A stretch of 64,000 nt of DNA from Elusimicrobiota bacterium (lineage in GTDB: Bacteria; Elusimicrobiota; UBA8919). A program made the position numbers and the translations under genes. The notes below the pieces were generated by a model. That model saw only the letters and a list, made by a program, of their open reading frames with translations. It was not told where the DNA came from and made no database searches. Each line of letters begins with the position of its first letter. The stretch's first letter is position 1. The stretch spans positions 1 to 64,000 of the forward strand of contig JBFLWK010000007.1 of assembly GCA_040757695.1 (NCBI GenBank). Direction: 5' to 3'. Positions 2,806-24,143 of the stretch are shown in pieces.

Positions 2806-3099
2806 ATGGCGGAGACAAAAGAAGCGTTGGGGATGATTGAGACGCGTGGGCTGATTGGAATGATTGAAGCGAGTGATGCGATGGTGAAGGCGGCGAAAGT
2901 TCGGCTGATTGGTTTTGAGAAAATCGGGACGGGGCTTGTGACAACGATGGTTCGTGGCGAGGTCGGTGCTGTGCGTGCCGCGGTTGAAGCAGGTGCTGCA
3001 GCAGCGCAAAAAGTCGGCGAACTGGTAGCAATACATGTCATACCGCGTCCCGACGAGCAGTTAGAAAAAGTACTCAAAAAAATAGAATCTAATTTTTAA
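2806..3099 (+). CDS. BMC-H shell protein, PduA/EutM type
   Basis: A 97-residue single BMC domain, the hexamer-forming tile of microcompartment shells. Diagnostic segments are [20 protein letters not shown] at the N-terminus, [18 protein letters not shown] at the pore and conserved core, and VIPRP near the C-terminus, all very close to PduA/EutM. Length is normal for the family. The start follows a GGGGAG site. Its position right after the extended DeoC indicates that the two act together, the shell retaining acetaldehyde produced by the aldolase. No pentameric (BMC-P) or trimeric shell gene is seen in this window, so the rest of the shell must be encoded elsewhere. Confidence 0.95.
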
Positions 3100-3210: not shown

Positions 3211-3504
3211 ATGGTTACCGAGCAAGATATTGTTGATATAGTATCTGGTGAAATATCTGACAGGAAGATAATGGCTAAAAAATCGCCATCATACAAAACA
3301 GGTTTTTTTACAAAAGACAAATGGATAAAATCCTACACGACACTTGAAACCAAAAAAAGATTGGTTACTGAAATTGAGATAAAAAAACTAATTGCAGAGG
3401 GTAGTAAAACATTAAAAATTTCTAAGGATACAATCCTGACGCCATTTGCGTTAGAGATTATTCAAGAAAAAGGGATAAAAATAATTAGTGAGGGGAGCGA
3501 ATAA
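3211..3504 (+). CDS. Small protein with BMC-accessory-type domain
   Basis: 97 residues, soluble. Residues about 50-95 (VTEIEIKKLIAEGSKTLKIS, then ILTPFALEIIQEKGIKI) resemble a short segment seen in proteins of BMC loci, such as the N-terminal part of EutT-type cobalamin adenosyltransferases, where an acidic helix precedes a TP-A-A-EKGI motif. The N-terminal 45 residues, with MVTEQDIVDIVSGEI, are not recognised. Placed one base pair group after the shell gene spacer and directly before pilT, so it could belong to either operon. No Shine-Dalgarno is visible because a repeat abuts the start. Function is unknown; a scaffold or accessory role in the compartment is inference. Confidence 0.6.
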   Translation: MVTEQDIVDIVSGEISDRKIMAKKSPSYKTGFFTKDKWIKSYTTLETKKRLVTEIEIKKLIAEGSKTLKISKDTILTPFALEIIQEKGIKIISEGSE

Positions 3505-3505
3505 T

Positions 3506-4582
3506 ATGAACATTTCAGAACTTTTACAAGCAATGATAAAAAAAGGGATTTCGGATATTCATTTTAAGGCAGGCACACCACCTGTGATAAGAATCAACGG
3601 CAAACTTGTCTCTACCGGGTTTGAAAGTTTTACACCCAAACATATAGAAGAAATTGCATTCGGGCTTTTAACAAAAGAACAAAAAGAAAAATTTGCTACA
3701 GAAGACGAAATAGATTTATCATATGGTGTAGAAGGGCTATCAAGATTCAGGGTTAATATCTACAAACAACGCGGGACAGTTGCGCTTACTTTACGGGTTG
3801 TACCGTTACAGGTAAAACCCTTTGAAGAACTCAATTTACCTGATGCAATACTAAAAAAACTTGCTGCGGAGCCGCGTGGGCTTATCTTATTTGCCGGCAT
3901 AACAGGTGCCGGGAAAACAACAACTATGAATGCGATGATTGACTACATAAATGAGAATTTCGCATACAAAATTGTATCCATAGAAGACCCGATAGAGTAT
4001 TTTCATAAAGACAAAAAATCGTTTATGAGTCAACGAGAAGTTGGTTCCGATACGAAATCGTTTGGCAAAGGGTTAAAATATGTTTTAAGACAGGACCCTG
4101 ATGTGGTCTGTATTGGTGAGATGCGTGATTTTGAAGCAATCGCTGCTGGTATTACTGCCGCAGAAACAGGACATCTGGTTTTGTCTACGATACATACGAT
4201 GGATGCGGTTCAGACGATAGACCGAATTGTAGATGCATATCCACCACACCAGCAGCATCAGGTAAGAATCGCACTGTCAAATGTAGTCAAAGGTATCATT
4301 GCACAGCGGCTAGTTCCAACTGTAAAAGGTGACGAGCGGATTCCTGCGACTGAAATTCTTATTGGGACTTCGCTTATCCGAAAAAATATCGCAGAAGGTA
4401 AGTCAGCCGAGATTTACAAACTAATGGAGCAAGGCGAGTATTACGGTATGTGGACATTTGACCAGTGTATAATCCAGTTCTACAAAGAAAAGAAAATTAT
4501 TCTTGAGGATGCATTAGAGAATGCGACAAACCCTGACGACCTGATGCTGAAAATTAAAGGGATAGAACGAGATGAGAAATAA
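3506..4582 (+). CDS. pilT: PilT-type secretion/retraction ATPase
   Basis: A 358-residue hexameric motor ATPase of the type II/IV secretion superfamily. Visible motifs: Walker A GITGAGKTTT, Asp box IVSIEDPIEY, Walker B DPDVVCIGEMRD, and the His box ETGHLVLSTIHT. The N-terminal domain begins MNISELLQAMIKKGISDIHF as in PilT. In known systems PilT depolymerises type IV pili. The ATG at 3506 is chosen over an upstream in-frame GTG because GAGGGGAG lies at the right distance. It heads an operon of overlapping genes with a DnaA-like ATPase and a two-component system rather than the usual pilus genes, so its substrate filament is uncertain. Confidence 0.93.
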   Translation: MNISELLQAMIKKGISDIHFKAGTPPVIRINGKLVSTGFESFTPKHIEEIAFGLLTKEQKEKFATEDEIDLSYGVEGLSRFRVNIYKQRGTVALTLRVVPLQVKPFEELNLPDAILKKLAAEPRGLILFAGITGAGKTTTMNAMIDYINENFAYKIVSIEDPIEYFHKDKKSFMSQREVGSDTKSFGKGLKYVLRQDPDVVCIGEMRDFEAIAAGITAAETGHLVLSTIHTMDAVQTIDRIVDAYPPHQQHQVRIALSNVVKGIIAQRLVPTVKGDERIPATEILIGTSLIRKNIAEGKSAEIYKLMEQGEYYGMWTFDQCIIQFYKEKKIILEDALENATNPDDLMLKIKGIERDEK

Positions 4583-5501
4583 TTGGACAATGCTGCCTGA
4601 GTTTGATAACGAACATCAAAACAGATATATTGTTATGGTGACAACCCGTGAAGAAGCTGATAATCTGATAAAAAGATTTCCGAATCTGTGTTCTCAACCA
4701 ATTGAAATAAAAGGTGAAATAGACGAAAAATACAAGTGGGGCGTGTATGTTGACGATTCAACCAGAGAAGACCGAAAAAATATTTACAAGTATTTTTTGG
4801 GTGAACTTGAAGATGTGGTAAATCAGGAACTGAAAAAAGAAACAGAAGTAAACGAGGTAATTTCTGCGTTGACAGATATTTTTTCAGCATTGACAGTTGA
4901 AGAGCAAAGATATATTGAACAAAAGATTCCTGAAAAGATAGAGGTGCTAGAGAAACTTACTGAAAAAAAAGAAGCAGAAAAAACACAGGCAATACCAGAA
5001 CCACAAAAAAGTCCTGTTGCACCTCCAACCACACCCACACATCCCGTGTCTCCCACACCAATAGTAACAGAGGAAGTTAGTCCTCAACAGGGAATCCAAC
5101 TTTCACCTGCTAAGACAACAGGCGAATCACTTAATGCGTGTTATCTTTATCCATCAACCTTTCCCCAATCAGTTGAAAAGTTCATAAACCAATTAACCAC
5201 AGTAACAGAAAAACTGATGAAAGAACCAATCCATCTTGAGAAAATAGCATCAATAGGTTATAGTTCCAATACACCTAACGAATTTATCTCGCTGGTTCAT
5301 GAGGCAAAACAAAAATCTGCCGAAATTATTTTTGTAGTTATTCCAGACGGGATAGATGATATCCGACTTTTTATAGATACAGCATGCAGAATGAATGATA
5401 TGCTTTATATGGTTGCCCAGATTAGTCAACTTGACAAAAGGTTTGTATTTGTTGATATGGCAATAGAACTCTTACTGGTTAAGAAAAAACTGAGAACATA
5501 A
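4572..5501 (+). CDS. Unknown protein, paralogue A of a three-gene set
   Basis: 309 residues, overlapping the end of pilT by 11 bases. Three parts can be seen. Residues 1-90 form a small domain (NWTMLPEFDN, then NRYIVMV) similar in layout to the N-termini of the next two proteins. Residues about 115-185 are a charged then Pro/Thr-rich linker. Residues about 186-309 are an alpha/beta domain beginning LNACYLYPSTFPQSVEKF. The C-terminal domain resembles a Rossmann-like or receiver-like fold with alternating hydrophobic strands (IIFVVIPDGIDD) but no phospho-acceptor pattern is clear. It lacks the ATPase domain of the third paralogue. Not recognised as any named family. Confidence 0.6.
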   Translation: MRNNWTMLPEFDNEHQNRYIVMVTTREEADNLIKRFPNLCSQPIEIKGEIDEKYKWGVYVDDSTREDRKNIYKYFLGELEDVVNQELKKETEVNEVISALTDIFSALTVEEQRYIEQKIPEKIEVLEKLTEKKEAEKTQAIPEPQKSPVAPPTTPTHPVSPTPIVTEEVSPQQGIQLSPAKTTGESLNACYLYPSTFPQSVEKFINQLTTVTEKLMKEPIHLEKIASIGYSSNTPNEFISLVHEAKQKSAEIIFVVIPDGIDDIRLFIDTACRMNDMLYMVAQISQLDKRFVFVDMAIELLLVKKKLRT

Positions 5502-5512
5502 AAAAGAAGCAA

Positions 5513-6346
5513 ATGATAGAAAAATGGGAAATAATTCCATATCCGTCTGAAAGATATCCGGATAGATACAAGGTGAGTATTAAATGCGATTATAACACCC
5601 TGAAAAAAATTACTGATTTTTATGGAAAAAAATGCGGGTTACCGTGGAAACCTAAAAATTCAGAGTTCAACTTTTCGTTTTATCTGTATCAAATAACACC
5701 ACAAGATGTAGAAAAACTGGAAGCCCAAATGAATGAGTTACAACATTTACCGACAAAAACAGAACCAGCCGTTTTTCATCCTGAACCACGTTCTAATATA
5801 TTCCCGCCAAGAGCGTCTACAAAACAGCCGACAACCGAAGAAGTAAAAGTAGCAAAAGAGATGTCGGATATTATTGATTTTGATATTTTTGAACCTGAAA
5901 AGCTTAACAGCATAGAACTACCGAAAGAAACCAAACAACAAAAAATTGTTGAGACAGAGAGAAGCACCATATCTGTCGGTATAATTTTCAGGAGCGGTCA
6001 GGAAGAATATGCTAATACAATTGAAAAAAATCTGCTACAAAGTGTTTCTGGCAGAAAACTTAAATTCCAAATCAAAATTGTATTCAAGCAAGGTTATCTT
6101 GTTTTTTCAGATGAAGATATTGAAAATGCGATCTCACTTTGTAAGAAACAAAATGTTACAGCAGTTGTGGTCAATGGTGAATCCAAACTTGCCGAGATAT
6201 TACAGAAACCATTTCAGTCAGCAGGGATATACATAGAACATATAAAACCAACTGATGTAGATAAAAAGTCTATTTATTTTAATATCGCGACAAATATTAT
6301 ATTAGCAGAAACAGAGAAATCGCGAATAGAGGCACGCGAATTATGA
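5513..6346 (+). CDS. Unknown protein, paralogue B of a three-gene set
   Basis: 277 residues. The N-terminal domain (1-75) begins MIEKWEIIPYPSERYPDRYK and lines up with MIKKWDLVFSPCDRDKNRYK of the next gene, including the aromatic, proline and RYK positions. A flexible Pro/Ser/Thr linker follows (about 80-150). The C-terminal domain (about 153-277, from SVGIIFRSGQEEY) lines up with the C-terminal domains of both neighbours. Its stop overlaps the next start by four bases (ATGA), implying translational coupling. No ATPase or enzymatic motif is visible; an adaptor or sensor role next to the DnaA-like ATPase is inference. Confidence 0.6.
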   Translation: MIEKWEIIPYPSERYPDRYKVSIKCDYNTLKKITDFYGKKCGLPWKPKNSEFNFSFYLYQITPQDVEKLEAQMNELQHLPTKTEPAVFHPEPRSNIFPPRASTKQPTTEEVKVAKEMSDIIDFDIFEPEKLNSIELPKETKQQKIVETERSTISVGIIFRSGQEEYANTIEKNLLQSVSGRKLKFQIKIVFKQGYLVFSDEDIENAISLCKKQNVTAVVVNGESKLAEILQKPFQSAGIYIEHIKPTDVDKKSIYFNIATNIILAETEKSRIEAREL

Positions 6347-8172
6347 TTAAAAAATGGGATTTAGTTTTTTCGCCTTGTGATAGGGATAAAAACAGATATA
6401 AACTTCTGATATCGGCACTACAAGATGACCTTACCGAAACAATAAAGTTTTTTGGGTCAGATGCGGGCAAACCGTTCACTCCGCTTTCACAGGAATATAA
6501 TTATGCGGTTTATATTTACAATGTATCAGACGACAAAAAACTTGCAGCTGAAAAGTTTCTTAAAAGTAAATGTTCAGAAGGCAAAATTGAAGATACTCAA
6601 GGTGGTGTTGGGCTTGAAGAAATTTTTCAGAAAGTAGCAGGGATTGAAGAAGCACCGATTGAGAAACCTGAAATACCGACTGTACCACCAATACAGCAGA
6701 CGCCGCCTGCTACTCCGCCACCTCTTACCACTCCCACCACTTCTACTGCTGAAACAAAAAAAGGAATAGAGGACGAAAAAAAAGCTGAGGGGGGGGGAGA
6801 AACCGTTTTAGTAAAACCTAAATTGAACTTAAGATATATTTTTGATGAATTTGTTGTCGGCGCTAACAACCGTTTTGTTCATGCAGCCGCTTGGGCGGTT
6901 TCTCAAAGCCCGGGCAAAACATATAATCCGCTTTTTATCTACGGTGGTGTTGGTTTAGGAAAAACACATATTATGCAAGCGATTGGAAATACAGTCAAAG
7001 ACAGGAATCTGTCGGCTAATATCCTTTATATTACTACTGAAAAGTTCACATCTGAAGTTATAGAAGCGATAAAAGACGGCACACTTTTAGAGTTCAGACA
7101 GCAGTACAGGAATCTTGATTTATTGCTTGTTGATGATATCCAGTTTCTGTCAGAAGCGGAGTCAACACAGGAAGAATTTTTTCATACTTTTAATATCTTA
7201 CATGAAAACCAGAAACAGATTGTGATTACATCCGACAAGCCACCCAAAAAACTGGCAGGGATAGAAGACCGTTTGAAATCCCGATTTGAATGGGGGCTGA
7301 TTGCTGATATAAAACCACCGGATTTAGAGACACGGGTTGCAATTTTAAAGAAAAAAGCACAGAACGAAAAAATGGAATTAGACGATAAGATGCTGATATA
7401 TATCGCCAGCAAACTGAAATCCAACATCAGGGAATTAGAAGGTTTCTTGAAACGACTGAAAGCATATTCTACAATGACTAACCTGCCTATAAATATGGAT
7501 CGCGCAAAAGAATTGATAGGCGAGTTGTTACCGGAAACAGAAATAGAAGAAATGGTTGAAAAAGCGGTGGCTACTGTTACACCTGTGTCTGTAGCGCCAC
7601 TTGTAGCCCCAGCCCCACCCTCTCCACCACCACCTCTACCAGCACCTGAAAAACAGGTTGTTGAACCGGTAAAAGAAACAAAAGCACCTGCTCAACCTGT
7701 AATACCAGTTGTTGAGAAAAAAGGGGGGGAAGAGGTTATCAGCCCGCTACCACCTGCAAAAAGTGAATATGACCTGTTAAAACCGGTTGAAGTCGCTTAT
7801 TTTTATCCTGCTGGTTATGAAAAAGAGTTGGAAAAAGTAAAACAGTTATTCATAGAGACGATAAAAAAACATAAATTAAAATTCAGGCTGGTTGGCGTTT
7901 TTGATAGAGGTTACGAATTTGACAAAAAAATAAATTATACGCTTTTTGTCCAGTTATGCAATACAAACAACATACATATCGCTATTTTTTTATGCCCGCC
8001 GTCTTCTTCAATAATTACGGAAGAGGATTTTATAAATATGGTTACAAATGCATGCGAGTCAGGTAATGTTTCTGCTGAAATAATCCCATTTGCGGATTTA
8101 ACAAAACAGTACAAATATCTGAATATCGCACTGGATATAACATTGCTTGGTCATAAGGATTTTACAAAATGA
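6343..8172 (+). CDS. DnaA-type AAA+ ATPase embedded in paralogous domains
   Basis: 609 residues. Residues 1-85 and 480-609 match the N- and C-terminal domains of the two preceding proteins. Between two Pro-rich linkers sits a full DnaA domain III (about 161-400): YIFDEFVVGANNRFVHAA, Walker A GGVGLGKTH, Walker B LLLVDDIQFL, sensor segment VITSDKPP, and an arginine-finger region RLKSRFEWGL, followed by the DnaA-type lid (IRELEGFLKRLKAY). The DNA-binding domain IV of true DnaA is absent, so it is not a replication initiator of the usual kind. A run of nine G residues at 6789-6797 lies in the first linker, just before the ATPase domain. Coupled by ATGA overlaps to genes on both sides. Confidence 0.85.
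   Translation: MIKKWDLVFSPCDRDKNRYKLLISALQDDLTETIKFFGSDAGKPFTPLSQEYNYAVYIYNVSDDKKLAAEKFLKSKCSEGKIEDTQGGVGLEEIFQKVAGIEEAPIEKPEIPTVPPIQQTPPATPPPLTTPTTSTAETKKGIEDEKKAEGGGETVLVKPKLNLRYIFDEFVVGANNRFVHAAAWAVSQSPGKTYNPLFIYGGVGLGKTHIMQAIGNTVKDRNLSANILYITTEKFTSEVIEAIKDGTLLEFRQQYRNLDLLLVDDIQFLSEAESTQEEFFHTFNILHENQKQIVITSDKPPKKLAGIEDRLKSRFEWGLIADIKPPDLETRVAILKKKAQNEKMELDDKMLIYIASKLKSNIRELEGFLKRLKAYSTMTNLPINMDRAKELIGELLPETEIEEMVEKAVATVTPVSVAPLVAPAPPSPPPPLPAPEKQVVEPVKETKAPAQPVIPVVEKKGGEEVISPLPPAKSEYDLLKPVEVAYFYPAGYEKELEKVKQLFIETIKKHKLKFRLVGVFDRGYEFDKKINYTLFVQLCNTNNIHIAIFLCPPSSSIITEEDFINMVTNACESGNVSAEIIPFADLTKQYKYLNIALDITLLGHKDFTK
6789..6797 (+). repeat. G9 homopolymer tract
   Basis: Nine consecutive G within the linker coding for EGGGE in an AT-rich gene. 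Gain or loss of one base would shift the frame before the AAA+ domain. A G7 run occurs in the second linker of the same gene at 7723-7729. Confidence 0.9.
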
Positions 8173-10802
8173 GAAAGTTAAATTTATATTTAAGTTTCAG
8201 GTTTTTGTTGTTTTTAGTGATACTGGTACTCGTTTTGATATTTGCATACTGTATTCGTAATGCTGGTAATTCATATCTGATTTTTGTAGCAGGTGGAATA
8301 GTTTTAATCGTTGGATATATTTGGATTTTTCAACCACTGAGATTGTTAGAACAACTATTTGTTAAATCCAGAGAAGGTAACTACTATGATTATCAGCCCA
8401 AAATAACCGGGCTTGGTAAGTTTGGTGCGGATTTAGAACTGCTTTTTAAGCGGCTGCTGGTTTTTGAAGGTTCGCTTAATATCCTGTTTGCAGCCTCTAA
8501 AACGATTACTTCCAGAATAGAAATTAACGAAGTAATAGAAATGCTTTTAGATTTGGTCTACGAAAAAATGATGATACCATCAACCTGTGTTGTTTTTTTA
8601 GATGACGATGGTTTTTTACGAATAAAGGCATCCCGCGGATTATCCGACAATTTTGTCAAAAATATGCACCCCAGACCTGATGAAGGATTCGTCGGTAAAG
8701 CATTCTCAACAAAGGCAACAATAATAGTAAATGACGCAACTAAAGAAAGACATCCGGTGACTGAAAAACTGGTTGACCAGGAAGGGCTTATGTCGTTTGT
8801 CCATATCCCAATCATTGTTAATGATAAAGCAGTTGGTGTTTTTAATGTCAATTCAGATATCAAAAGTTTCTTTGACGCTAATATAGTAAAAACATTAACC
8901 ACACTTACCGATTATCTGGCAATCGCGATAAGTAATTCAAAAATGTATCAGGATATCCAGGAGTTTAATAAACGGTTAGAGTTAGAGGTTGAAGCAACAA
9001 CAGAAGAATTAACAAAAACGAACCTGCGGCTCATAGCGAAAGTGAAAGAAATGAAAACCTTGAATGATATAATTTTTTCTGCAACCGGTAAGGTTGATAT
9101 GAATGAAATGTTTTCTACAGTAGCAGAACGGCTAAAACTTGTTACAAATGTCGCTAACGCCGGGTTTGTTATCTATGATGAGCAAACTAAACTGCTCGTC
9201 GGGAATTGCGATTTTGACACATTTAATCTGGCAGCTGAGACCACAGATAATATGCTTTCTAAATCTTACAGAAATGCTACAACATTTATCTCTAACGAAC
9301 TGTTTATGGAGAATGCATCTGATTTGCAAAATCTCTATAAAAAATATAGAATCACTTCGTTGATTGCATTACCGTTAATTGAAAAAAAGGTGTTAGGACT
9401 GCTTCTGCTCGGTAATAAAGCAACAGGCAAATTTTCACAGGATGATATGAGATTTTTGTCCGTTGTTGCATCACAGATTGCAGAACTCATAGTAAGAATA
9501 AAACTTTATGAGCAGTTAAATCACCGTCTCAATGACCTGATGACTTTGAGAGATATATCCAATACAATCAAAACAGAACCGCAGTTAGAAGAAACTGTAG
9601 AAGTACTGGCTGAAAAAAGTATCAGAGCGTTAGAATCTGACTATGTATTATGCTGGCTTCTGGACGAACCCAGTGGCGCACTTATGCTAAAATTTCCGCC
9701 AGAAATGATTCCGCAACACGAGTTGCAAATACCTAAGACATCAACATCTATTATTGCTGAAATATTCCAGAAAGGTAATATCCAGTATTTAGACGAGTTA
9801 GAACTACCGGATGGACCGTATCAAGAATTACAAAAAACACTGCAGCTAAAATCACATCTTTTTGTACCACTCAAAGTTGAAGATAAAAGTATAGGGCTGT
9901 TTTGTTTCTGTTCCAAATCGCAGAAATTTTTTAATGATGAAAAAAGCCGGCTTGCTGAATTGATTGCCGGGCAGACCGCGGTTATTGTAGAAAATGCAAG
10001 AATCCATAACCGCTTGAAAGAAATCAATATAGAACTGGAACGGCTGAATAAAATTAAAGACGATTTCGTCTCTATGGTTTCACATGAACTCCGAACACCA
10101 CTTACCGCAATCAAAGGGTTTGTTCATGTTGTGTTAGACGAAGAAGCAGGCAAAATTAACGACCAGCAGAAAAAATTCTTACGAATTGTTGAACAATCCA
10201 GTAACCATCTAACACGGCTGATAAGCGATTTGCTGGATTTGTCAAAAATAGAAAAAGGTTTGATAATACTGCGGATAGAAAAACTTAACCTTTCAGATGT
10301 TGTGAAAAAATCAATAGAAACAAACATAAACCAGATAAAACATAAAAATATCAATATAAAACTTGAAATTGATAAAGAAATCCCGAATATAGATGGCGAT
10401 TTCTCAAGGTTGCTTCAAGTGTATGATAATCTCGTCTCAAATGCGGTTAAATTTACACCCAATGGTGGAGATATTTCAATCATTGTAAAAAATAAAGGCG
10501 ACTTCGTGCTCTCCGCTATCACAGATACCGGTATCGGTATTCCTAAAGAAGAACACGAAAAAATATTTGATAAGTTTTATCAGATAGATTCTTCATACAC
10601 AAGAATTGCCACCGGAACAGGGTTAGGACTGTATATTGCAAAATCAATTATTGAACTGCACGGCGGCAATATCTGGATAGATTCAGCACCTGCTAAAGGT
10701 TCAACTTTTTCATTCTTACTACCGAAAATAAAAAAAACAGACATAATAGATAAAAAAAAACAGGAGGTAGAAAATGCCCAGAATACTAGCGATAGACGAT
10801 GA
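8169..10802 (+). CDS. Membrane-anchored multi-GAF sensor histidine kinase
   Basis: 877 residues. Two transmembrane helices occupy about 10-30 and 35-57. Three GAF-like domains follow (about 95-240, 295-420 and 455-600), separated by coiled-coil linkers (EFNKRLELEVEATTEELTKT). The HisKA H-box is SHELRTPLTAIKG near residue 637, and the HATPase domain has N-, G1- and G2-box segments (LVSNAVKFTPNGG, DTGIGIPKEE, GTGLGLYIAKSI). Starts with an ATGA overlap with the DnaA-like gene and overlaps the response regulator, so it is the sensor of this operon. Ligands of the GAF domains cannot be told from sequence. It would phosphorylate the following single-domain regulator. Confidence 0.93.
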   Translation: MRKLNLYLSFRFLLFLVILVLVLIFAYCIRNAGNSYLIFVAGGIVLIVGYIWIFQPLRLLEQLFVKSREGNYYDYQPKITGLGKFGADLELLFKRLLVFEGSLNILFAASKTITSRIEINEVIEMLLDLVYEKMMIPSTCVVFLDDDGFLRIKASRGLSDNFVKNMHPRPDEGFVGKAFSTKATIIVNDATKERHPVTEKLVDQEGLMSFVHIPIIVNDKAVGVFNVNSDIKSFFDANIVKTLTTLTDYLAIAISNSKMYQDIQEFNKRLELEVEATTEELTKTNLRLIAKVKEMKTLNDIIFSATGKVDMNEMFSTVAERLKLVTNVANAGFVIYDEQTKLLVGNCDFDTFNLAAETTDNMLSKSYRNATTFISNELFMENASDLQNLYKKYRITSLIALPLIEKKVLGLLLLGNKATGKFSQDDMRFLSVVASQIAELIVRIKLYEQLNHRLNDLMTLRDISNTIKTEPQLEETVEVLAEKSIRALESDYVLCWLLDEPSGALMLKFPPEMIPQHELQIPKTSTSIIAEIFQKGNIQYLDELELPDGPYQELQKTLQLKSHLFVPLKVEDKSIGLFCFCSKSQKFFNDEKSRLAELIAGQTAVIVENARIHNRLKEINIELERLNKIKDDFVSMVSHELRTPLTAIKGFVHVVLDEEAGKINDQQKKFLRIVEQSSNHLTRLISDLLDLSKIEKGLIILRIEKLNLSDVVKKSIETNINQIKHKNINIKLEIDKEIPNIDGDFSRLLQVYDNLVSNAVKFTPNGGDISIIVKNKGDFVLSAITDTGIGIPKEEHEKIFDKFYQIDSSYTRIATGTGLGLYIAKSIIELHGGNIWIDSAPAKGSTFSFLLPKIKKTDIIDKKKQEVENAQNTSDRR

Positions 10803-11154
10803 TGCTATCACATTGGAACTGTTAGAGTTTTTTCTGACACGACATAAGTATGAGGTAACCACAGCAACTAATGGACCTGACGGTATTAAAAAAGCACAAG
10901 CATTACAGCCCAATTTGATTCTGCTGGATGTAATGATGCCAATGATGGATGGGATTGAGGTCTGCAAAAAATTAAGAGCAGATGAAAAAACAGCAAAAAT
11001 ACCAATACTGTTTTTGTCTGCACTCGGGCAGGATATAGAGGTTATGAAAGGGTTGATGGCGGGTAGCGATGGCTATATCGTGAAACCGTTTGAACCGGAT
11101 GATTTATTAAACCAGATACAAAAACTAATAAGTCCGAATAAAGGCACCGAATAG
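10774..11154 (+). CDS. Single-domain response regulator
   Basis: 126 residues forming only a CheY-like receiver. Acidic pocket D8-D9-D10 (AIDDDA), phospho-acceptor aspartate in LILLDVMMPMMDG, the Ser/Thr switch in FLSALG, and the lysine in IVKPFEP. A CAGGAGG site precedes the ATG, and the start overlaps the kinase gene. There is no output domain, so signalling must be through protein contact, plausibly with the PilT or DnaA-like ATPase in the same operon (inference). The last five residues are encoded by the 5' edge of an intergenic repeat. Confidence 0.95.
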   Translation: MPRILAIDDDAITLELLEFFLTRHKYEVTTATNGPDGIKKAQALQPNLILLDVMMPMMDGIEVCKKLRADEKTAKIPILFLSALGQDIEVMKGLMAGSDGYIVKPFEPDDLLNQIQKLISPNKGTE

Positions 11155-12826: not shown

Positions 12827-13144
12827 ATGAATAACCAAGTGAATGAGTATACAAAATTGATTAAGTCCAATACAAAAGTATTGAGAAGTAATTACAAAGT
12901 AAAAAACTTAGGGATATTTGGTTCAGTTGTAAGAAACGAACAGACTGAAAAAAGTGATGTAGATATTCTTATTGAATTTAGTGAAAGTGTTGGTCTATTT
13001 CATTTTATAAAGTTGAAAAATTTTTTGAGTACTATCCTAAATCATAAAGTTGATTTAATTCAGAAAGGAGCTTTAGACAGGAACCAGAAAAAAAGACCGG
13101 GCATGAAAGAAAGAGTATTAAAAGAAATGATACCGATACTATGA
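12827..13144 (+). CDS. mntA: MntA-type nucleotidyltransferase antitoxin
   Basis: 105 residues of minimal nucleotidyltransferase fold. The signature GS-x10-DxD is present as GSVVRNEQTEKSDVD, with a further acidic strand downstream (HKVDLIQ). In characterised HepT-MntA systems this protein neutralises the partner by adding AMP to a tyrosine next to the HEPN active site. Stop and downstream start overlap by four bases, the normal arrangement for the pair. A weak AAGGGTAAG site precedes the ATG. Confidence 0.85.
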   Translation: MNNQVNEYTKLIKSNTKVLRSNYKVKNLGIFGSVVRNEQTEKSDVDILIEFSESVGLFHFIKLKNFLSTILNHKVDLIQKGALDRNQKKRPGMKERVLKEMIPIL

Positions 13145-13479
13145 AAAGAGAAGACAAATCGTATATTGAAGATATAAAAAACTGTATTGAAAACATTGAG
13201 GAATATACCAAAGAAAAGACAATACAGGATTTTCTTAAGGATAAAAAAACTATTGATGCAGTAGAAAGAAATTTCATAACAATTGGAGAAGCAGCAAATA
13301 TGATTTCTAAAGAATTTCAAGAAAAACATATTGACATTCCCTGGCGGGATATGAATGATATGCGGAATATTGTGGCACATGAATATTATGAGATTGACTA
13401 TGATATTATCTGGCATACTATAAAAGAAGATTTACCCACATTAAAAATAAAAATTGAAAAACTTCACAAGGATTTATAA
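13141..13479 (+). CDS. hepT: HepT-type HEPN ribonuclease toxin
   Basis: 112-residue all-helical HEPN protein (DUF86). The RX4HXY active-site motif is intact as RNIVAHEY; in the family the Arg and His form the RNase site and the Tyr is the AMPylation target of MntA. Length is typical. Translationally coupled to the upstream antitoxin gene. Identity as a complete toxin-antitoxin module is well supported by motif and order; activity is not proven. Confidence 0.87.
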   Translation: MKREDKSYIEDIKNCIENIEEYTKEKTIQDFLKDKKTIDAVERNFITIGEAANMISKEFQEKHIDIPWRDMNDMRNIVAHEYYEIDYDIIWHTIKEDLPTLKIKIEKLHKDL

Positions 13480-13724: not shown

Positions 13725-13822
13725 ATGAAAAATATTGGTATTTTTGGTTTTACCTCATTAGAAAGCCCTATCACTTGTGGTGTTGATGAATCAACAAAAA
13801 ATTTGAAAATTTCAAGTCTGGC

Positions 13823-13957
13823 ACAGTTTTCACAGTTTTCACAGTTTTCACAGTTTTCAGTTTTGCAGTTTTCAGTTTTCGCAGTTTTCGTTCAGTTTTC
13901 GTTGCTGGCACAGTTTTCAGTTTTTTCAGTTTTCGCAGCAGTTTTCGCAGTTTTCAG
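13823..13957. repeat. CAGTTTTC word tract
   Basis: About fifteen copies of CAGTTTTC-like words in irregular spacing (CACAGTTTTCACAGTTTTCA, later CGCAGTTTTCG). All three forward frames are largely open and give Phe/Ser/Gln-rich nonsense. It lies exactly where the 5' half of the following PorV-like gene should be. Confidence 0.85.
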
Positions 13958-13999
13958 TGGTTTTTTATAGGTAGCAATGCAAAAATTGTAAATAGCACT

Positions 14000-15331: not shown

Positions 15332-15416
15332 TAACCACAGATGGACACAGATTAACACAGAAAAAATTTAGAATTAAGAATTAAAATCTGTGCAAATCTG
15401 TGTTAATCTGTGGTTA
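15332..15416. repeat. AACCACAG / CTGTGGTT inverted repeat
   Basis: TAACCACAGATGGACACAG on the left and ATCTGTGTTAATCTGTGG on the right form a long imperfect hairpin. The same words occur at 12500-12545, 51890-51950 and in the signal sequence of the gene at 110. Confidence 0.85.
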
Positions 15417-15450
15417 CTCGCCTAGGCGAGTTTTCTGGAACGGGGGAAGA

Positions 15451-17760
15451 ATGGACGAAAAAAAATTGATAAAGTCATCAATGTTACTTGATGAAAAAGA
15501 AAAATATGCAGAACAGGACCTGCAAATAATGGACCGACTTTTTATTGCCTATCGGGCAATCGTTATACTATTGTTTAATTTTGCGCAGTCAGGTCATCCT
15601 GGCGGCTCTATTTCAGTCGGCAGGATTCTCTTGAATCTTATCTTTAATAAAAATACAAAAATGGATATTACAAACTTGAATAGACCTGATTCTGATATTA
15701 TCGGCATGGCAGCAGGACATAAAGCACTCGGGTTGTATTCGTTTCTTGGGCTTTTATTTGAACTTGTAAAACTTAAAGATGAAAAACTTTACAATTCTAT
15801 TGAACATAAATTACGGTTTGAAGATTTGCTCGGATTCCGAAAAAATCCAGCAACTGTGTTGCCATTGCTGAAAAAATTTAGCTCTAAACGGCTTGATGGT
15901 CATCCAACACCTGAAACACCGGGCGTTATGCTCGCAACAGGCGCATCCGGTGTTGGCTTCGGTGGCTTCGGTGGTTATGCATTTGCAAAAAAAGAATACT
16001 ACGAGAATCCGCCAATAATAAATATCGTAGAAGGTGAAGGTGGAATGACACCGGGCAGAGTACACGAAAATCTGGCACATTTCTGGTCGGCTAATATCTG
16101 GAATCTGATTATCCATGTGGATTGGAACAATACCAGTATTGATGCGGATAATGTCTGTACCGACGAGCATAACAAAGGGCAGTATGTTAATTGGACACCT
16201 TACGAACTCGGGCTTCTACACGGGCATAATGTCGTGTATGTGGAAAACGGTAAGGATAATAATCAAATAAAAGTTTCACAGGATTATGCATTTAACAATT
16301 TTATCACTCAAAAAAATGCACCAAATATGCTTGTGTATCGCACTATAAAAGGCGAGGGCTATTGGGAAGGTAGAAAATCACACGGTGCCGGCTATAAACT
16401 GGATTCCGACGACTATTTCAATGCGCAAAAAATTTTTGAGACAACTTTTAATGTCCAATTCAGCAAAACACCGCAGCCGGCAACACCAGAAATAAAAGAA
16501 GAATATTTTTACAAGAATCTGTTGGTTGTTGAAACTGCACTTAGAGCCGACGATAAACTGCTTGAGTTTGGATTTAATAAACTGATTTCAAACAGGAATG
16601 CACTGAATAAAGAAAACCGCAAGCCTAAAAAAGATAGTGCCGCTATTTCCGTTTTGTTTGAAAATTCTGAGTCGCTTGATATAAAAAAACCACCTACAGA
16701 AATTTGGAATAAACCAGGCAGTTCTGTGACATTGCGGGAATCACTCGGTAGAACATTGAGTTATCTTAACCATATCACAAAAGGCAGCTTGTATGGTTTT
16801 GCCGCAGACCTTGTTGGCTCAACAAGTTTGAACCTGATGAGCGATGGTTTCCCTGAGGGGTTTATTTCCTGTGAGAAACCACTTGCCAAAATTATTCCAA
16901 CCGGTATCTGTGAAGACGGCGGTTCTGGTTTGATGTCAGGCATTTCTGCAACCGGGCATTATATCGGCGTAGGCAGTTCATATGCTACATTTATCAGCCC
17001 GATGGGATTCACTGCTGCACGGCTTTTCTGTATCGCATATCAGTCCAAACATGGTGAAAACATAGCACCGGTGATTTTGGTTAATGCACACGCAGGACTA
17101 AAAACAGGCGAAGATGGTCCCACACATGCGTGCCCGCAAACGCTTTCATTCTGGAAAAGTTTTAATAAACTTAAATGGAAAATAATTACACTTACACCTT
17201 GGGATGCAAACGAAATATGGCCGCTTGTCCTTACATCATTAAGACAAAAACCTGCTGTGATTGTCCCATTTGTTTCACGACCAAGTGAAACAGTAATTGA
17301 TAGAAAAAAGTATGGTTTTGCCGATGTATCAGAAACTGTTAATGGAATATACTCTATCCGTCGGGCAAAAAAATCAAAAGCAACTATCCTGTATCAAGGC
17401 GCCGAAGTTGGGATTGAACTGCCTAATGTCGTTGAGATTTTAGACAGAGAAAAAATAGATGTGAATATTTTATATATCTCAAGCACGGAATTGTTTTCAT
17501 ATCTGTCGAAAAAAAAGCAAGATGAGATTTTACCGATAGAATTCAAGCAAAACGCAATGGCAGTAACAGGTTTTACAATAGATACGATGTACGAACATCT
17601 GCTGTCCGAAAAAGGGCGTGAGTTTTCGTTGCATCCATTCAAGAAAGGAATCTTTTTGGGCTCAGGTCCCGGCGGTGAAGTGCTGAAACAAGCAGGTTTG
17701 GATGTCAAGAGTCAGATTCAGGCAATAAAAAAATTTGTTATAGAATTAAAAAAAGAATAA
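15451..17760 (+). CDS. Transketolase-superfamily enzyme, divergent
   Basis: 769 residues from the ATG at 15451, preceded by GGGGGAAG; an upstream in-frame start at 15400 would translate repeat sequence. Thiamine diphosphate binding is indicated by the GHPGG motif (SGHPGGSISVG), an EGEGGMTPGRVHE segment in place of the usual GDG motif, and a central domain with GEDGPTHACPQTL close to the transketolase GEDGPTHQP motif. All three transketolase domains are represented, but identity to common TktA looks low. Likely acts on pentose phosphates, consistent with the nucleoside salvage genes downstream. Related ThDP enzymes such as dihydroxyacetone synthase-like proteins are alternatives. Confidence 0.75.
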   Translation: MDEKKLIKSSMLLDEKEKYAEQDLQIMDRLFIAYRAIVILLFNFAQSGHPGGSISVGRILLNLIFNKNTKMDITNLNRPDSDIIGMAAGHKALGLYSFLGLLFELVKLKDEKLYNSIEHKLRFEDLLGFRKNPATVLPLLKKFSSKRLDGHPTPETPGVMLATGASGVGFGGFGGYAFAKKEYYENPPIINIVEGEGGMTPGRVHENLAHFWSANIWNLIIHVDWNNTSIDADNVCTDEHNKGQYVNWTPYELGLLHGHNVVYVENGKDNNQIKVSQDYAFNNFITQKNAPNMLVYRTIKGEGYWEGRKSHGAGYKLDSDDYFNAQKIFETTFNVQFSKTPQPATPEIKEEYFYKNLLVVETALRADDKLLEFGFNKLISNRNALNKENRKPKKDSAAISVLFENSESLDIKKPPTEIWNKPGSSVTLRESLGRTLSYLNHITKGSLYGFAADLVGSTSLNLMSDGFPEGFISCEKPLAKIIPTGICEDGGSGLMSGISATGHYIGVGSSYATFISPMGFTAARLFCIAYQSKHGENIAPVILVNAHAGLKTGEDGPTHACPQTLSFWKSFNKLKWKIITLTPWDANEIWPLVLTSLRQKPAVIVPFVSRPSETVIDRKKYGFADVSETVNGIYSIRRAKKSKATILYQGAEVGIELPNVVEILDREKIDVNILYISSTELFSYLSKKKQDEILPIEFKQNAMAVTGFTIDTMYEHLLSEKGREFSLHPFKKGIFLGSGPGGEVLKQAGLDVKSQIQAIKKFVIELKKE

Positions 17761-17822: not shown

Positions 17823-19529
17823 ATGGATATCAGAGAAATTATTAAAGCGGCAAATGGCGAAATAGTGGTTGACCTGTTGTTAAAAAATGGTAAATTGGTG
17901 AATGTCTTTTCAGGCGAAGTTTATCCTGAAAATGTGGCAATCCATAAAGGTTTTATCGTCGGGTTCGGAAATTACAAGGCAAAAAAAGTACTGAATATCA
18001 ATGGCAGATATATCTCGCCAGGTTTTATAGACGGGCATGTCCATATTGAATCATCAATGATGTCCGTTTCAGAGTTTGCAAGAGCAGTTGTGCCTAAAGG
18101 TGTAACATCCGTTATTACTGATGCACACGAGATTGCAAATGTTTTAGGGATTGATGGTATAAAATATATGCTGGAGTCGTCAAAAAACCAGCCACTGAAT
18201 GTCTTCTTTATGCTGCCATCCTGTGTGCCTGCAACGAATATGGAAACAGCAGGTGCGAAACTGACCGGTTTTGATTTGTATCCGTTTCTGACTGAAAAAT
18301 GGGTTGTTGGAATTGGTGAGGTGATGAATTATCCAGGGCTTGTAGGTATTGATGAAAACCTTATTGATAAAATAAAAATTGCAAGAGGAAAAAGAATTGA
18401 TGGCCATTCACCGGGGCTTTCAGGTAAACCACTATCTGCATATATTTCTGCAGGCATCGCTTCTGACCACGAATCAACAACCTATAAAGAGGCAAAAGAA
18501 AAACTGGATAAAGGTATGTATGTGATGATAAGAGAAGGCACTTCAGAACGAAACCTTAAGGAATTAATTCCACTCGTGAATGAAAAAAATTATTCTCGGT
18601 TCTTTTTTGTTACCGACGATAGACATCCGCCAGATTTGGTGAACGAAGGCTCTATTGATTTCGTAATAAGAAAAGCAGTCTCACTCGGGCTTGACGGTGT
18701 TGTAGCAATCAAGATGGCAACATTGAATACTGCGGAGTATTTTCATTTATCAAGAATCGGTGCGGTTGCGCCGGGTTATCAGGCGGATATTGTGATTTTA
18801 GATAACCTGAAAAATATCAAGCCGAAAATGGTTTTTAGGCGTGGTGAGTTGGTAGCGGTTGACGGCAAGTATGTCGGCAAAAAGGTCAAACTTGCTGATG
18901 TGTCGCTTCGTAGTTCAATAAATGTCAAATGGCTTGCTGAAACTGATTTCAGAATCCCGGCAGTTAAAAAAAATGTCAGAGTAATAGAAATTGTGCCATA
19001 CCAGATTATCACGAAAAACAAAATTTATCCTGTGGGTATAAAAAATAAACTTGCGGTTTCTGATACAAAAAAAGATGTTTTGAAGTTGGTTGTTGTAGAA
19101 CGGCATCTTGCATCAGGAAATATCGGCAAGGGTTTTGTAAAGGGTTTTGGTTTAAAAAAAGGTGCGATTGCTTCATCGGTAGCGCATGATTCGCACAATG
19201 TAATCTGCGTCGGTGTTAACGATAAATCCATATTTACCGCCTGTGTAGAAATAGTAAAAATGGGTGGTGGATTATGTATCGCTGATAGCGAAAAAATTCT
19301 AGGTAAACTGCCGCTTCCAATTGCAGGGCTTATGACAGACAAACCACTTGAAACGGTTGTAAAAGAACTTGAAAAACTTGTTATAGTTTCCCAAAAACTT
19401 GGCTGTGTTCTGGACGACCCGTTTATGACGCTTTCGTTTCTTGCACTGCCTGTAATTCCAGAATTAAAACTGACCGACAGAGGTCTCGTGGATGTTAATA
19501 AAATGAAAATAGTAGGACTATTTGTATGA
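17823..19529 (+). CDS. ade: Adenine deaminase
   Basis: 568-residue amidohydrolase converting adenine to hypoxanthine and ammonia. The metal-binding HVHIESSMM motif (GHVHIESSMMS), DAHEIANVLG, the carboxylated or bridging residue region GIGEVMNYPG, DGHSPG, and the late-domain VAHDSHNVICVG segment are all as in bacterial Ade. Length fits the family. It supplies hypoxanthine to purine salvage next to phosphopentomutase and purine nucleoside phosphorylase. The stop overlaps the next start (ATGA). Confidence 0.93.
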   Translation: MDIREIIKAANGEIVVDLLLKNGKLVNVFSGEVYPENVAIHKGFIVGFGNYKAKKVLNINGRYISPGFIDGHVHIESSMMSVSEFARAVVPKGVTSVITDAHEIANVLGIDGIKYMLESSKNQPLNVFFMLPSCVPATNMETAGAKLTGFDLYPFLTEKWVVGIGEVMNYPGLVGIDENLIDKIKIARGKRIDGHSPGLSGKPLSAYISAGIASDHESTTYKEAKEKLDKGMYVMIREGTSERNLKELIPLVNEKNYSRFFFVTDDRHPPDLVNEGSIDFVIRKAVSLGLDGVVAIKMATLNTAEYFHLSRIGAVAPGYQADIVILDNLKNIKPKMVFRRGELVAVDGKYVGKKVKLADVSLRSSINVKWLAETDFRIPAVKKNVRVIEIVPYQIITKNKIYPVGIKNKLAVSDTKKDVLKLVVVERHLASGNIGKGFVKGFGLKKGAIASSVAHDSHNVICVGVNDKSIFTACVEIVKMGGGLCIADSEKILGKLPLPIAGLMTDKPLETVVKELEKLVIVSQKLGCVLDDPFMTLSFLALPVIPELKLTDRGLVDVNKMKIVGLFV

Positions 19530-20488: not shown

Positions 20489-21318
20489 TGTATTCCATTT
20501 ATCATTTCTTTTATTCGTTGGTTCAGCAAAAACATCTTTTAAAAAAGGTCAAAAGATTGGATAAATTTCCATTTGATAAAAATCTACTGTCTTGTAGAAA
20601 TGATGGAATTTTTCCTGATATGGCGATTCGGCTCAACAAAGATAAAAAAATATTTACAGGCGGTGAATTGATAGAATTAAAAGATAGCGATTCTTATACT
20701 GTTTCATCTTTCAATTCAACTATACCTTCCCGGAGTAAAAATATTGAGGAGATTATTATTGGAGAGAATAGCATAATTAAACAACAGATGGAAAAGGTAG
20801 GTAATGATATTTTCTTATTGCCTGTAAGAGATGTATATTATCTTGTCAGGGGAAGGAAAGAAAGTTATGTAAAAATTTGCCTCGTTTATGGTAGTTTTTT
20901 TGAGACGATTAGTATAGAAAATCTGATAAGCCAGTCATTTTCACAGGTTTTAGAAGAGCGATTAAAGGAAAGTGGTAAAAAAATTTCAGAAGAGTTTAAG
21001 CAAACTCTCTTAACCATTTTTTCTCAACAACAAAATTTCAGTAAAGTTAGAAATGTAGAAAAAGCATCTGTGAAACTTCGTTTCCGGATAATGACTGAAA
21101 TTAAAGCCGAAGGGAACATTTTGAATCCCAAAAAGTACCAAGAAATTAAAGATGACACTTTGAATTTTGTTTTGCCTTGCCATACTGATGAAGAAGAAAA
21201 AAATATCTTAAGAAAAACAGAAATAGTATCTGGTAAATCAGGATTAGAAAAATTCAGTATTTTCAAAATCAAACATCATTTCAACGGTTATTTTCTTGTA
21301 TTACAAATACCATTATGA
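20488..21318 (+). CDS. Probable type II restriction endonuclease
   Basis: 276 residues, overlapping the methyltransferase stop (TAATG) and the next gene (ATGA). A PD-(D/E)xK-like core is suggested by CRNDGIFPDMAIR followed by GGELIELKDSDSY and SSFNSTIPSR. These segments remind me of the HindVP family (cleaves GRCGYC), but this is an impression, not a verified match. Very AT-rich coding. The strongest evidence for an endonuclease is the position next to a solitary type II methyltransferase. Confidence 0.65.
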   Translation: MYSIYHFFYSLVQQKHLLKKVKRLDKFPFDKNLLSCRNDGIFPDMAIRLNKDKKIFTGGELIELKDSDSYTVSSFNSTIPSRSKNIEEIIIGENSIIKQQMEKVGNDIFLLPVRDVYYLVRGRKESYVKICLVYGSFFETISIENLISQSFSQVLEERLKESGKKISEEFKQTLLTIFSQQQNFSKVRNVEKASVKLRFRIMTEIKAEGNILNPKKYQEIKDDTLNFVLPCHTDEEEKNILRKTEIVSGKSGLEKFSIFKIKHHFNGYFLVLQIPL

Positions 21319-22538
21319 AAATTATTTTAATTGTTTTGGATTCTGTCGGAGTTGGAGCATTGCCAGATGCAGAAAAATATAATGATGTTGGAACAGACAC
21401 ACTTGGTAATATCGCAAAATCAGTGAAAGATTTCAATCTCCCAAATCTTGCAAAACTTGGTCTTTACCATCTCGTATCCTCGTCCCTCGTCCCTCGTCCC
21501 TCGTCCCTCGGTGGTTGTTACGGCGAAATGGCTGAGGCTTCTAATGCTAAAGACACAATTATTGGACATTGGGAGATAGCAGGAATAATTACAGAAAAAC
21601 CGCTTCCGACTTATCCTGATGGATTCCCTAAGGAATTGATTGCCGAATATGAAAAAAAAATCGGGACGAAAACGCTCGGAAATTATGCATCTTCTGGGAC
21701 TGAAATAATAAAACAACTTGGCAAACAACATTACAAAACCGGTTATCCGATTGTCTATACTTCTGCTGACAGTGTTTTTCAAGTTGCCGCACACGAGGAT
21801 GAAAAAATTTTCGGCTTGAATCGGCTTTATGAAATTTGTGAAATCGCCAGAAAGATGCTCGTTGCACCGCATAATATCGGCAGAGTAATCGCAAGACCAT
21901 TTATTGGGACTCCTGGAAATTTCAAGCGAACTTCAAATAGGCACGATTATGCAATTGACCCGCCTGAAGAGACATTGCTTGATAAATTAAAAAATTCCGG
22001 TGTAGAAGTAATAAGCATCGGAAAGATTTCCGATATTTTTAACGGTCACGGGATTACAAAAGCGATTCATACTGAAAACAACAAAGATGGTATGCAAAAA
22101 ACACTTGAAGCAGTTCATAAGTTCTCAAGTTCTCAAGTTCTTAAGTTAACACAAGAACATAAGAACATAAGAACACAAGAACGCCTTTTAGTTTTTACAA
22201 ATCTCGTTGATTTTGATATGCTATGGGGCCACCGTCGGGATGTTGTGGCGTATTACAACGGACTTAAAGAGTTTGATGAGTTCTTACCGAACATATGTTC
22301 GGTAATGGCTGATGACGATATTTTATTCATTACTGCTGACCATGGCTGCGACCCGACGCATAAAATACACACTGACCATACACGAGAATATGTGCCACTT
22401 CTCGTATTCGGCAAAAGACTGAAAAACAATGTCAATCTCGGTATCAGAAAAACATTCGCAGATTTAGGCCAGACAATTGCAGAATTATTTGATATAAAAC
22501 TTAAGCGTGGAACAAGTTTCTTAAAAGAAATTAAATGA
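21315..22538 (+). CDS. deoB: Phosphopentomutase with in-frame repeat insertions
   Basis: 407 residues of the alkaline-phosphatase-like superfamily, interconverting (deoxy)ribose 1- and 5-phosphates. Metal and catalytic segments are visible: ILIVLDSVGVGALPDA near the N-terminus, DTIIGHWEI with the phosphorylated threonine region, FTNLVDFDMLWGHRRD, and TADHGCDPTH. Its product feeds the DeoC aldolase. Two low-complexity insertions sit in variable loops: a CGTCCCT heptamer run at 21473-21512 coding Ser/Pro/Leu residues, and a self-complementary GTTCTCAA / AAGAACA array at 22121-22182. A 22-bp palindrome is at 22284-22305. Reading frame is intact, so the enzyme is probably functional. Confidence 0.92.
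   Translation: MKIILIVLDSVGVGALPDAEKYNDVGTDTLGNIAKSVKDFNLPNLAKLGLYHLVSSSLVPRPSSLGGCYGEMAEASNAKDTIIGHWEIAGIITEKPLPTYPDGFPKELIAEYEKKIGTKTLGNYASSGTEIIKQLGKQHYKTGYPIVYTSADSVFQVAAHEDEKIFGLNRLYEICEIARKMLVAPHNIGRVIARPFIGTPGNFKRTSNRHDYAIDPPEETLLDKLKNSGVEVISIGKISDIFNGHGITKAIHTENNKDGMQKTLEAVHKFSSSQVLKLTQEHKNIRTQERLLVFTNLVDFDMLWGHRRDVVAYYNGLKEFDEFLPNICSVMADDDILFITADHGCDPTHKIHTDHTREYVPLLVFGKRLKNNVNLGIRKTFADLGQTIAELFDIKLKRGTSFLKEIK
21473..21512 (+). repeat. CGTCCCT heptamer tandem repeat inside deoB
   Basis: Four consecutive TCGTCCC units with degenerate edges. Translates to SSLVPRPSSLG where typical DeoB proteins have a short loop before the conserved KMAE-like segment. Confidence 0.85.
22121..22182. 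repeat. GTTCTCAA / AAGAACA inverted array inside deoB
   Basis: GTTCTCAAGTTCTCAAGTTC is followed, after AAGTTAACAC, by three AAGAACAT-like words on the complementary sense, so the coding strand can form a long hairpin. It encodes roughly twenty residues between the NKDGM and FTNLVDFDM segments of DeoB. Confidence 0.85.
22284..22305. repeat. Perfect 22-bp palindrome inside deoB
   Basis: Core CCGAACATATGTTCGG extended by TTA and TAA on the two sides. In frame, coding around LPNICSVM. Related to the palindrome at 925-940. Confidence 0.8.
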
Positions 22539-22876
22539 TAATTTTTGAAGTTAAATCAATAACTGGAAAAACAATAAGACTTACAGCGATTCAATGGGTT
22601 CATATTAGAAAAAGACATCCCGAGATGGATAATCAATTATCAAAACTAACCATAACAATACAACAACCGGATTTGATATACTACTGTCCTGAGGAAGACA
22701 ATGTGCATTACTACAAACATTTTAAGGAAACTCCTGTGAGTGAAAAATACTTACTTTTGATTGCCCAACATACTAATGGCGATGGCTTTGTTATTACTGC
22801 GTTTTTTGTTAAAAAAATTAGGAAAGAAAAAAAGGAGGTTGTCTATGGAGAAAAAAATCTCAATAAGTTACGATAA
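22535..22876 (+). CDS. PBECR-like small nuclease toxin candidate
   Basis: 113 residues. The segment WVHIRKRHPEM, then TIQQPDLIYY, YYKHF, YLLLIAQ and GFVITAFFVKKI reproduces the layout of the phage-Barnase-EndoU-ColicinE5/D-RelE-like nuclease (PBECR) domains, small RNase-like toxins. The start overlaps the deoB stop (ATGA). The following DUF2283 gene begins inside its 3' end, as antitoxins commonly do. Family assignment is by pattern only. Confidence 0.6.
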   Translation: MIIFEVKSITGKTIRLTAIQWVHIRKRHPEMDNQLSKLTITIQQPDLIYYCPEEDNVHYYKHFKETPVSEKYLLLIAQHTNGDGFVITAFFVKKIRKEKKEVVYGEKNLNKLR

Positions 22877-24118: not shown

Positions 24119-24143
24119 AAAAAATGAAAAGGAGGGATGTGTT

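Follow-up and report, generated by a model that had tools for sequence, protein, structure and literature searches.

Between positions 3506 and 11154 of the window (the whole stretch of 64,000 nucleotides that was analysed), six genes lie on the forward strand in the order PilT, P1, P2, P3, histidine kinase (HK) and lone receiver (REC). In this order, the gaps between neighbours are -11, +11, -4, -4 and -29 bp, so the coordinates of the open reading frames agree with an earlier reading made from the sequence only, in which the genes overlapped or nearly abutted. Such spacing, with no overlap longer than 29 bp, is what one operon would show. The first gene (3506-4582, + strand; longest open reading frame from 3488) encodes a PilT-family retraction ATPase of 358 amino acids (TIGR01420, 453 bits against a cut-off of 319). 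According to our profiles, P1 (4572-5501, +) is composed of an N-domain, a helical and Pro-rich linker and a C-domain (approximately 5115-5495), and P2 (5513-6346, +) of an N-domain, a short linker and a C-domain (approximately 5957-6322; profile match 5.5e-31). P3 (6343-8172, +) is a protein of 609 amino acids with a novel N-domain (6343-6600), the AAA+ domain III of DnaA (approximately 6814-7563), a Pro-rich linker and a novel C-domain (7768-8160; 2.3e-55). HK (8169-10802, +) is a membrane histidine kinase with three GAF domains, HisKA and HATPase (Pfam), and REC (10774-11154, +) is a response regulator consisting of a receiver and no other domain (Response_reg 2.4e-28). PilT at the start and a multi-GAF kinase plus a receiver-only regulator at the end were thus recovered with Pfam and NCBIfam as previously described, and the last two proteins make up a two-component system, with HisKA and HATPase in the kinase and a receiver as its partner. 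Outside the window's family, a gene for such a lone receiver was encountered only in L033, a metagenome-assembled genome of the Elusimicrobiota. Directly upstream of PilT, a gene for a 97-amino-acid protein of unknown family (3211-3504, +) follows a shell protein gene; it has no Pfam match, and homologues are located upstream of PilT or P3 in several families.

P1, P2 and P3 are connected by their terminal domains. The N-domains of P2 and P3 match each other in BLAST at about 1e-11, and a profile made from P3 C-domains alone retrieved P2 (iE 1e-9) and P1 (iE 0.0014), while the orthologues of both scored far better. When this genome was searched with the C-domain profile, exactly three copies were found, all inside the operon. 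The sequence-only reading had assigned a shared N-domain, a Pro-rich linker and a C-domain to all three proteins; the two domains were supported by BLAST and profiles, and the linker is Pro-rich in P1 and P3, but not in P2, where it is short. Searches with P1 and P2 returned no match in NCBIfam or PHROGs and none above the family cut-off in Pfam. Neither shared domain falls in any described family according to these profile searches, a test that had been named beforehand, and the two orphan domains define new protein families. In other families, P1 orthologues precede P3 and mostly lack the N-domain; P2 was encountered outside the window's family only in genome G008. Stand-alone P1/P2-like or N-domain proteins also occur away from P3 or upstream of PilT (L158:9137-9898, L182:1812-2678 and L180:5051-6484). 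Two neighbours of 148 and 369 amino acids in family f4 are unrelated to the N- or C-domain.

Structures were predicted with window and L033 sequences only, resulting in shallow alignments of four rows. The N-domain model (pLDDT 87, shallow alignment) has a small beta-beta-alpha-beta-alpha-beta fold, and no significant match was obtained in a fold search. The C-domain model (pLDDT 86, four-row alignment) shows a beta-alpha repeat fold of the flavodoxin-like alpha/beta type, and Foldseek also placed it near folds that bind ligands, among them those of lumazine synthase and PTS IIB. P489, Y524, P552 and Y592 are conserved, as is the acidic nature of position 598. By TM score, the best matches were the MID domains of PIWI/Argonaute proteins (MIWI, 4p1z, TM 0.69/0.73-0.76, rmsd 2.9), with lumazine synthase equal by E-value and other Rossmann-like folds matching similarly. 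Argonaute kinship, suggested by eye and by Foldseek, was not supported by the Pfam scan (no Argonaute family), by a PDB profile search or by hhalign (probability 0.9%), and the C-domain proteins have no PIWI domain. The position that, in an alignment made by eye, corresponds to the 5'-phosphate-binding lysine in helix 4 of AGO2 is acidic in 51 of 51 P3s. Since the sequence comparison with the AGO2 MID domain shows nothing, we claim a resemblance of folds only.

DnaA is one of the most universal proteins of bacteria. In P3, its domain III was recognized by Bac_DnaA at 2.6e-69, and the PDB search returned residues 108-357 of B. subtilis DnaA (2.7e-95). As had been noted, this domain is present only in the third paralogue and is not followed by domain IV; we found that domain I is missing as well. 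Neither DnaA_N (domain I) nor Bac_DnaA_C (domain IV) was detected in P3 with Pfam or NCBIfam, the place of domain I being taken by the unrelated N-domain, and the helix-turn-helix of domain IV is missing from the window P3 and eight further P3s. The true DnaA of this genome, encoded on contig 21, has both DnaA_N and Bac_DnaA_C. It should be noted that P3 domain III passes the NCBIfam DnaA model TIGR00362 (369 vs 343.9 bits). Automatic annotation will label P3 a second replication initiator, although recognition of DnaA boxes via domain IV is impossible, and the family needs to be renamed. The P3s form one clade apart from the DnaAs of the phylum; it includes DnaA_L031, which has the same P3 sequence as P3_L137. 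Domain III of P3 is 58-59% identical to that of Bacillota DnaAs and only about 50% identical to that of the genome's own DnaA. A viral origin was considered and rejected, as P3 matches nothing in PHROGs but generic ATPases of the helicase or clamp-loader type. Likewise, for a defence system PADLOC returned generic kinase matches and one weak P1 match only.

The Walker A and B motifs, the box VII arginine, the arginine finger R264 and sensor II are kept in 17 of 17 core P3s, just as in DnaA. For B. subtilis DnaA, the roles of I190, I193, R202, E228, N187 and R264 have been described, and E223 contacts DNA there as well (PMC10721633). At the ISM positions for contact with single-stranded DNA (B. 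subtilis numbering), I190, R202, E223 and E228 are found in all 17 core P3s and I193 is replaced conservatively; small residues stand in place of the DNA-contacting N187 and K222. Judged by its residues, core P3 appears built to assemble with ATP, possibly on single-stranded DNA, without the domain that recognizes double strands. In families f4 and f6, P3 is divergent: the Walker motifs are kept, whereas sensor II and most contact residues are lost, in f6 together with the arginine finger; the ATPase may therefore act differently in these families. Members of f4 (L113-L117, L119) encode P3 versions of 900-1600 amino acids with a very long disordered middle, next to DeoC, TIM, two small lipoprotein-like proteins, ComM, DprA, TopA and an XerD-like integrase. 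In the genome's own DnaA (L121:8158-9513), the contact residues R202 (H), K222 (G) and E228 (V), which are kept in P3 or most DnaAs, are lost.

The PilT of the operon has kept its catalytic motifs. Among 60 relatives, its orthologues in 14 other genomes reached 431-692 bits against this query, compared to at most 389 bits for the other PilTs of those genomes. In 15 genomes, including that of the window, the orthologue sits in the P3 cluster; in G007, PilT and P1 are on another contig than P3 because of contig breaks. As the PilT tree, made from few sequences, is weakly resolved, the assignment of orthology is based on the bit-score gap and synteny. P3 is present without an adjacent PilT in families f2, f4, f5, f6, f7, f16, f17 and f19, indicating that the constant core is P3, usually together with the kinase. 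This bears on the former proposal that a DnaA-like ATPase assembles and is sensed by a phosphorelay with PilT as effector. Its first part agrees with the sequences, in that every residue tested for nucleotide-dependent assembly is kept; for its second part, no support was obtained, and several families have retained P3 with no PilT next to it. We also evaluated single genes as discriminators. PilM and PilT failed, since both occur in genomes lacking P3, and ComEC failed, since it is present in 60 of 60 genomes.

The operon sits inside a cluster of genes for deoxynucleoside and DNA catabolism, which had gone unremarked in the sequence-only reading. Upstream, the window encodes the deoxyribose-phosphate aldolase DeoC with an N-terminal extension (1591-2700, +; DeoC 2.1e-21) and a BMC-H shell protein (2806-3099, +; PF00936 2.7e-28). 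The DeoC extension carries a near-identical peptide of about 30 residues twice, possibly a tag for targeting to the microcompartment. Downstream, there are a transketolase-like enzyme (15400-17760, +; Transket_pyr 1.6e-13), adenine deaminase (17823-19529, +; Adenine_deam_C 3.8e-67), a DNA methylase, a protein of the metalloenzyme superfamily that is probably phosphopentomutase-like, judging from its context (21315-22538, +; PF01676 1.2e-43), a PHO4-type phosphate transporter with a PhoU-like partner (23087-24767, +; PF01384 3.3e-91 and PF01865 3e-17) and an enzyme of the purine-nucleoside-phosphorylase superfamily, PNP (24777-25595, +; PNP_UDP_1 5e-58). They are followed by a RecJ-type DHH/DHHA1 nuclease with an inserted RNase_T (DEDDh) exonuclease (25626-27845, +; DHH 78-208, RNase_T 219-372, DHHA1 517-607, RecJ_OB 625-731), a fusion that could be a single-strand nuclease working in two directions, and by pyrimidine nucleoside phosphorylase, PyNP (27902-29233, +; Glycos_transf_3 1.1e-46, PYNP_C 1.5e-21). 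Taken together, the genes of the window make up most of the route from DNA to deoxyribose 5-phosphate and the cleavage of the latter. RpiB, TIM and PTAC were not found near the operon in the window; the contig starts at base 1. Given this catabolic context, the likely purpose of the operon shifts from pure control of pili to acquisition of DNA.

A few other features of the window were recorded. A nucleotidyltransferase and HepT-like pair of the toxin-antitoxin type (12827-13479) lies behind the operon, ahead of the downstream genes for catabolism, followed by a low-complexity reading frame with FSQF/FSVF repeats (13725-13970) that is probably no gene. A small protein (22535-22876) matches PBECR2, a phage-type nuclease fold, just above the cut-off, and a protein of 712 amino acids (39874-42012) joins a ParA/MinD-like domain to a secretion ATPase of the T2SS/T4P type.

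In an even sample of the phylum, probably the Elusimicrobiota, 190 of the 295 genomes encode the C-domain, and it is present in 63 of the 90 genera. Among 508 sampled genomes of three other phyla (285 from that of an Omnitrophota record, 74 from that of a Saganbacteria record and 149 from that of an Acidobacteriota record), there was none, apart from one chance match of 56 residues full of stops. The fusion of N- and C-domain with DnaA is present in many families of the phylum besides that of the window. In L033, a frame break divides P3, and kinase and receiver are encoded as well. The module is absent from every member seen of the large family f3, and family f14 also lacks P3. The unusual composition of the six-gene set, pointed out from this one sequence, is real and conserved across families, and the survey of genomes for co-occurrence, likewise named beforehand, showed that PilT and the kinase recur next to P3 and that the arrangement is not unique to the contig. 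The DnaA-derived module with its dedicated PilT and kinase is conserved and specific to the phylum.

The neighbours of P3 were recounted in 47 loci from 22 families; the loci were chosen to represent families, and many are shortened by contig ends. The kinase was found near P3 in 16 of the 22 families, RpiB in 15, TIM in 14, DeoC in 13, PilT in 11, BMC shell proteins in 8, the phosphopentomutase-like enzyme in 7, the RecJ fusion and PTAC in 6 each, PNP, PyNP and ComM in 5 each, and DprA in 3. Unbiased clustering of neighbours in 50 loci also put the kinase on top (in 16 families, and at position +1 in 29 of the 30 loci), ahead of PilT (11) and DeoC (10); RpiB, TIM and transketolase came next, and almost without exception the neighbours lay on the strand of P3. 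With a wider window for clustering, TIM was found in 14 families, RpiB in 12, DeoC in 11, nucleoside phosphorylase in 9, and the phosphopentomutase-like metalloenzyme, PTAC and RecJ-exonuclease in 6, 6 and 5, respectively. Most P3 loci without catabolic genes carry the natural-transformation gene ComM and some DprA; in families f4 and f27, both kinds of genes are present. The P3 module is thus nearly always located amid genes for breakdown or uptake of DNA, which suggests an undescribed system that captures DNA as food.

The explanation we favour, although we give it somewhat less than an even chance, is that DNA captured by pili feeds the catabolic pathway and that P3 is an ATP-dependent filament former on the incoming single strands. 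The six genes would be the part of a DNA-feeding locus responsible for capture and control. The dedicated PilT would retract type IV pili and thereby bring in extracellular DNA, the putative substrate. P3 in its ATP form would assemble on the resulting single strands, without specificity for an origin because domain IV, by which DnaA recognizes double strands, is lost, and its N- and C-domains would link it to P1 and P2. The process would be switched by the membrane GAF kinase in response to a presumed signal, plus the lone receiver in the window's family. Nucleases such as the RecJ-exonuclease fusion would degrade the imported strand, PNP and PyNP would cleave the nucleosides, and the DeoC microcompartment would burn the deoxyribose phosphate. 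This explanation is favoured by the recurrence of catabolic genes near P3 in the loci surveyed, with most of the pathway in the window itself, by ComM and often DprA in most loci without them, by the distinct PilT orthologue found with P3, and by the assembly residues plus I190, R202, E223 and E228 kept in core P3s. Furthermore, microcompartments with DeoC, RpiB and TIM, named SPU for sugar-phosphate-utilising, have already been proposed to serve DNA catabolism (PMC4207490; PMC8156839), and competence-linked catabolism of DNA is known in Burkholderia (PMC5734746). It is weakened by the replacement of N187 and K222, by the loss of sensor II and most contact residues in the ComM/DprA-linked P3s of f4 and f6, by the families holding P3 without an adjacent PilT, and by the lack of RpiB, TIM and PTAC near the operon in the window. 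Moreover, the common neighbours of P3 loci could in part reflect conserved synteny rather than common function. In its strongest form, which we regard as doubtful, the model describes a foraging machine specific to the phylum, in which a repurposed initiator ATPase polymerizes on single strands pulled in by a dedicated retraction motor and passes them on to a bipolar nuclease and to a microcompartment that feeds on DNA, with the kinase in control.

The same data were weighed against explanations that do not involve feeding on DNA. In an alternative that resembles the sequence-only proposal, kinase and receiver might act on assemblies of P3, P1 and P2 that gate retraction by PilT in adhesion or twitching, the catabolic neighbours merely sharing an ancestral chromosomal region. 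PilT adjoins P3 in 11 families, always on the same strand, the kinase does so in 16, a receiver without DNA-binding output fits control by protein contact, and all P3 genomes with PilM scored over the cut-off have PilT. We nevertheless consider such pilus control unlikely, as it leaves the conserved DeoC/RpiB/TIM/PNP or ComM/DprA neighbours unexplained, P3 lacks an adjacent PilT in the eight families listed above, and type IV pilus genes occur without P3 in some genomes (f3, G052). Quite unlikely is a sensor-regulator of nucleoside catabolism, without DNA uptake, whose C-domains would bind a nucleotide or sugar phosphate, shift the assembly of P3 and so tune the microcompartment locus or the kinase. 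The likeness of the flavodoxin-like C-domain model to the ligand-binding folds of lumazine synthase and PTS IIB is consistent with it, as are the near-universal adjacency of the kinase and the catabolic context; however, PilT and ComM/DprA would remain unexplained, P1-P3 and REC have no DNA-binding output domain, and the kept ssDNA-contact residues would require another reason.

Finally, P3 could be an antagonist that co-assembles with the real DnaA via near-identical AAA+ surfaces and blocks or times replication on a cue from the kinase, somewhat like Hda. All assembly residues are kept, domain III scores as DnaA, and P3 lacks binding to DNA boxes, as does Hda. Against this stand the score of the Hda model, far under its cut-off, the identity of only about 50% to domain III of the own DnaA, the catabolic and uptake context, and the absence of P3 from whole families that still need regulation of DnaA (f3), so that we judge it very unlikely. 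If the capture of DNA as food is true, the ability of DnaA to form filaments on single-stranded DNA has been put to use in DNA uptake and linked to a microcompartment in which deoxyribose is burned, the predicted SPU microcompartments gain a route of supply, and the long-standing idea of DNA uptake for food becomes directly testable in a little-studied phylum.

No described counterpart of a DnaA-derived motor or chaperone for DNA uptake was found in the searches made, and in the open-access literature no paper joined DnaA and PilT in Elusimicrobiota, or a microcompartment with PilT, DnaA and DeoC. Several known systems share parts of the locus. Like the PilT/PilU retraction ATPases, the first gene product is a true member of its family, but it belongs to a distinct orthologous group tied to P3, and the other PilTs of the genome are only 43-49% identical to it. 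P3 has the complete AAA+ domain III of DnaA with Walker A/B, arginine finger, sensor II and most ISM residues; it differs in lacking domains I and IV, in its novel flanking domains, and in the presence of a separate DnaA with all domains in the same genome. With Hda it shares a DnaA-type AAA+ domain without domain IV, whereas its score of 115 bits (TIGR03420) is below the cut-off of 194.8, it is a 609-amino-acid protein with two extra domains, and its neighbours are different. Burkholderia resembles the system proposed here in its purpose, the use of extracellular DNA as a carbon source, but, as far as the available part of the paper goes, differs in gene content (PMC5734746). With the SPU loci, the window shares DeoC and a shell protein, and relatives share RpiB, TIM, PTAC and an EutN shell protein; PilT, a DnaA-like ATPase, nucleoside phosphorylase and the RecJ fusion are not mentioned for SPU in the available part of that study (PMC4207490).
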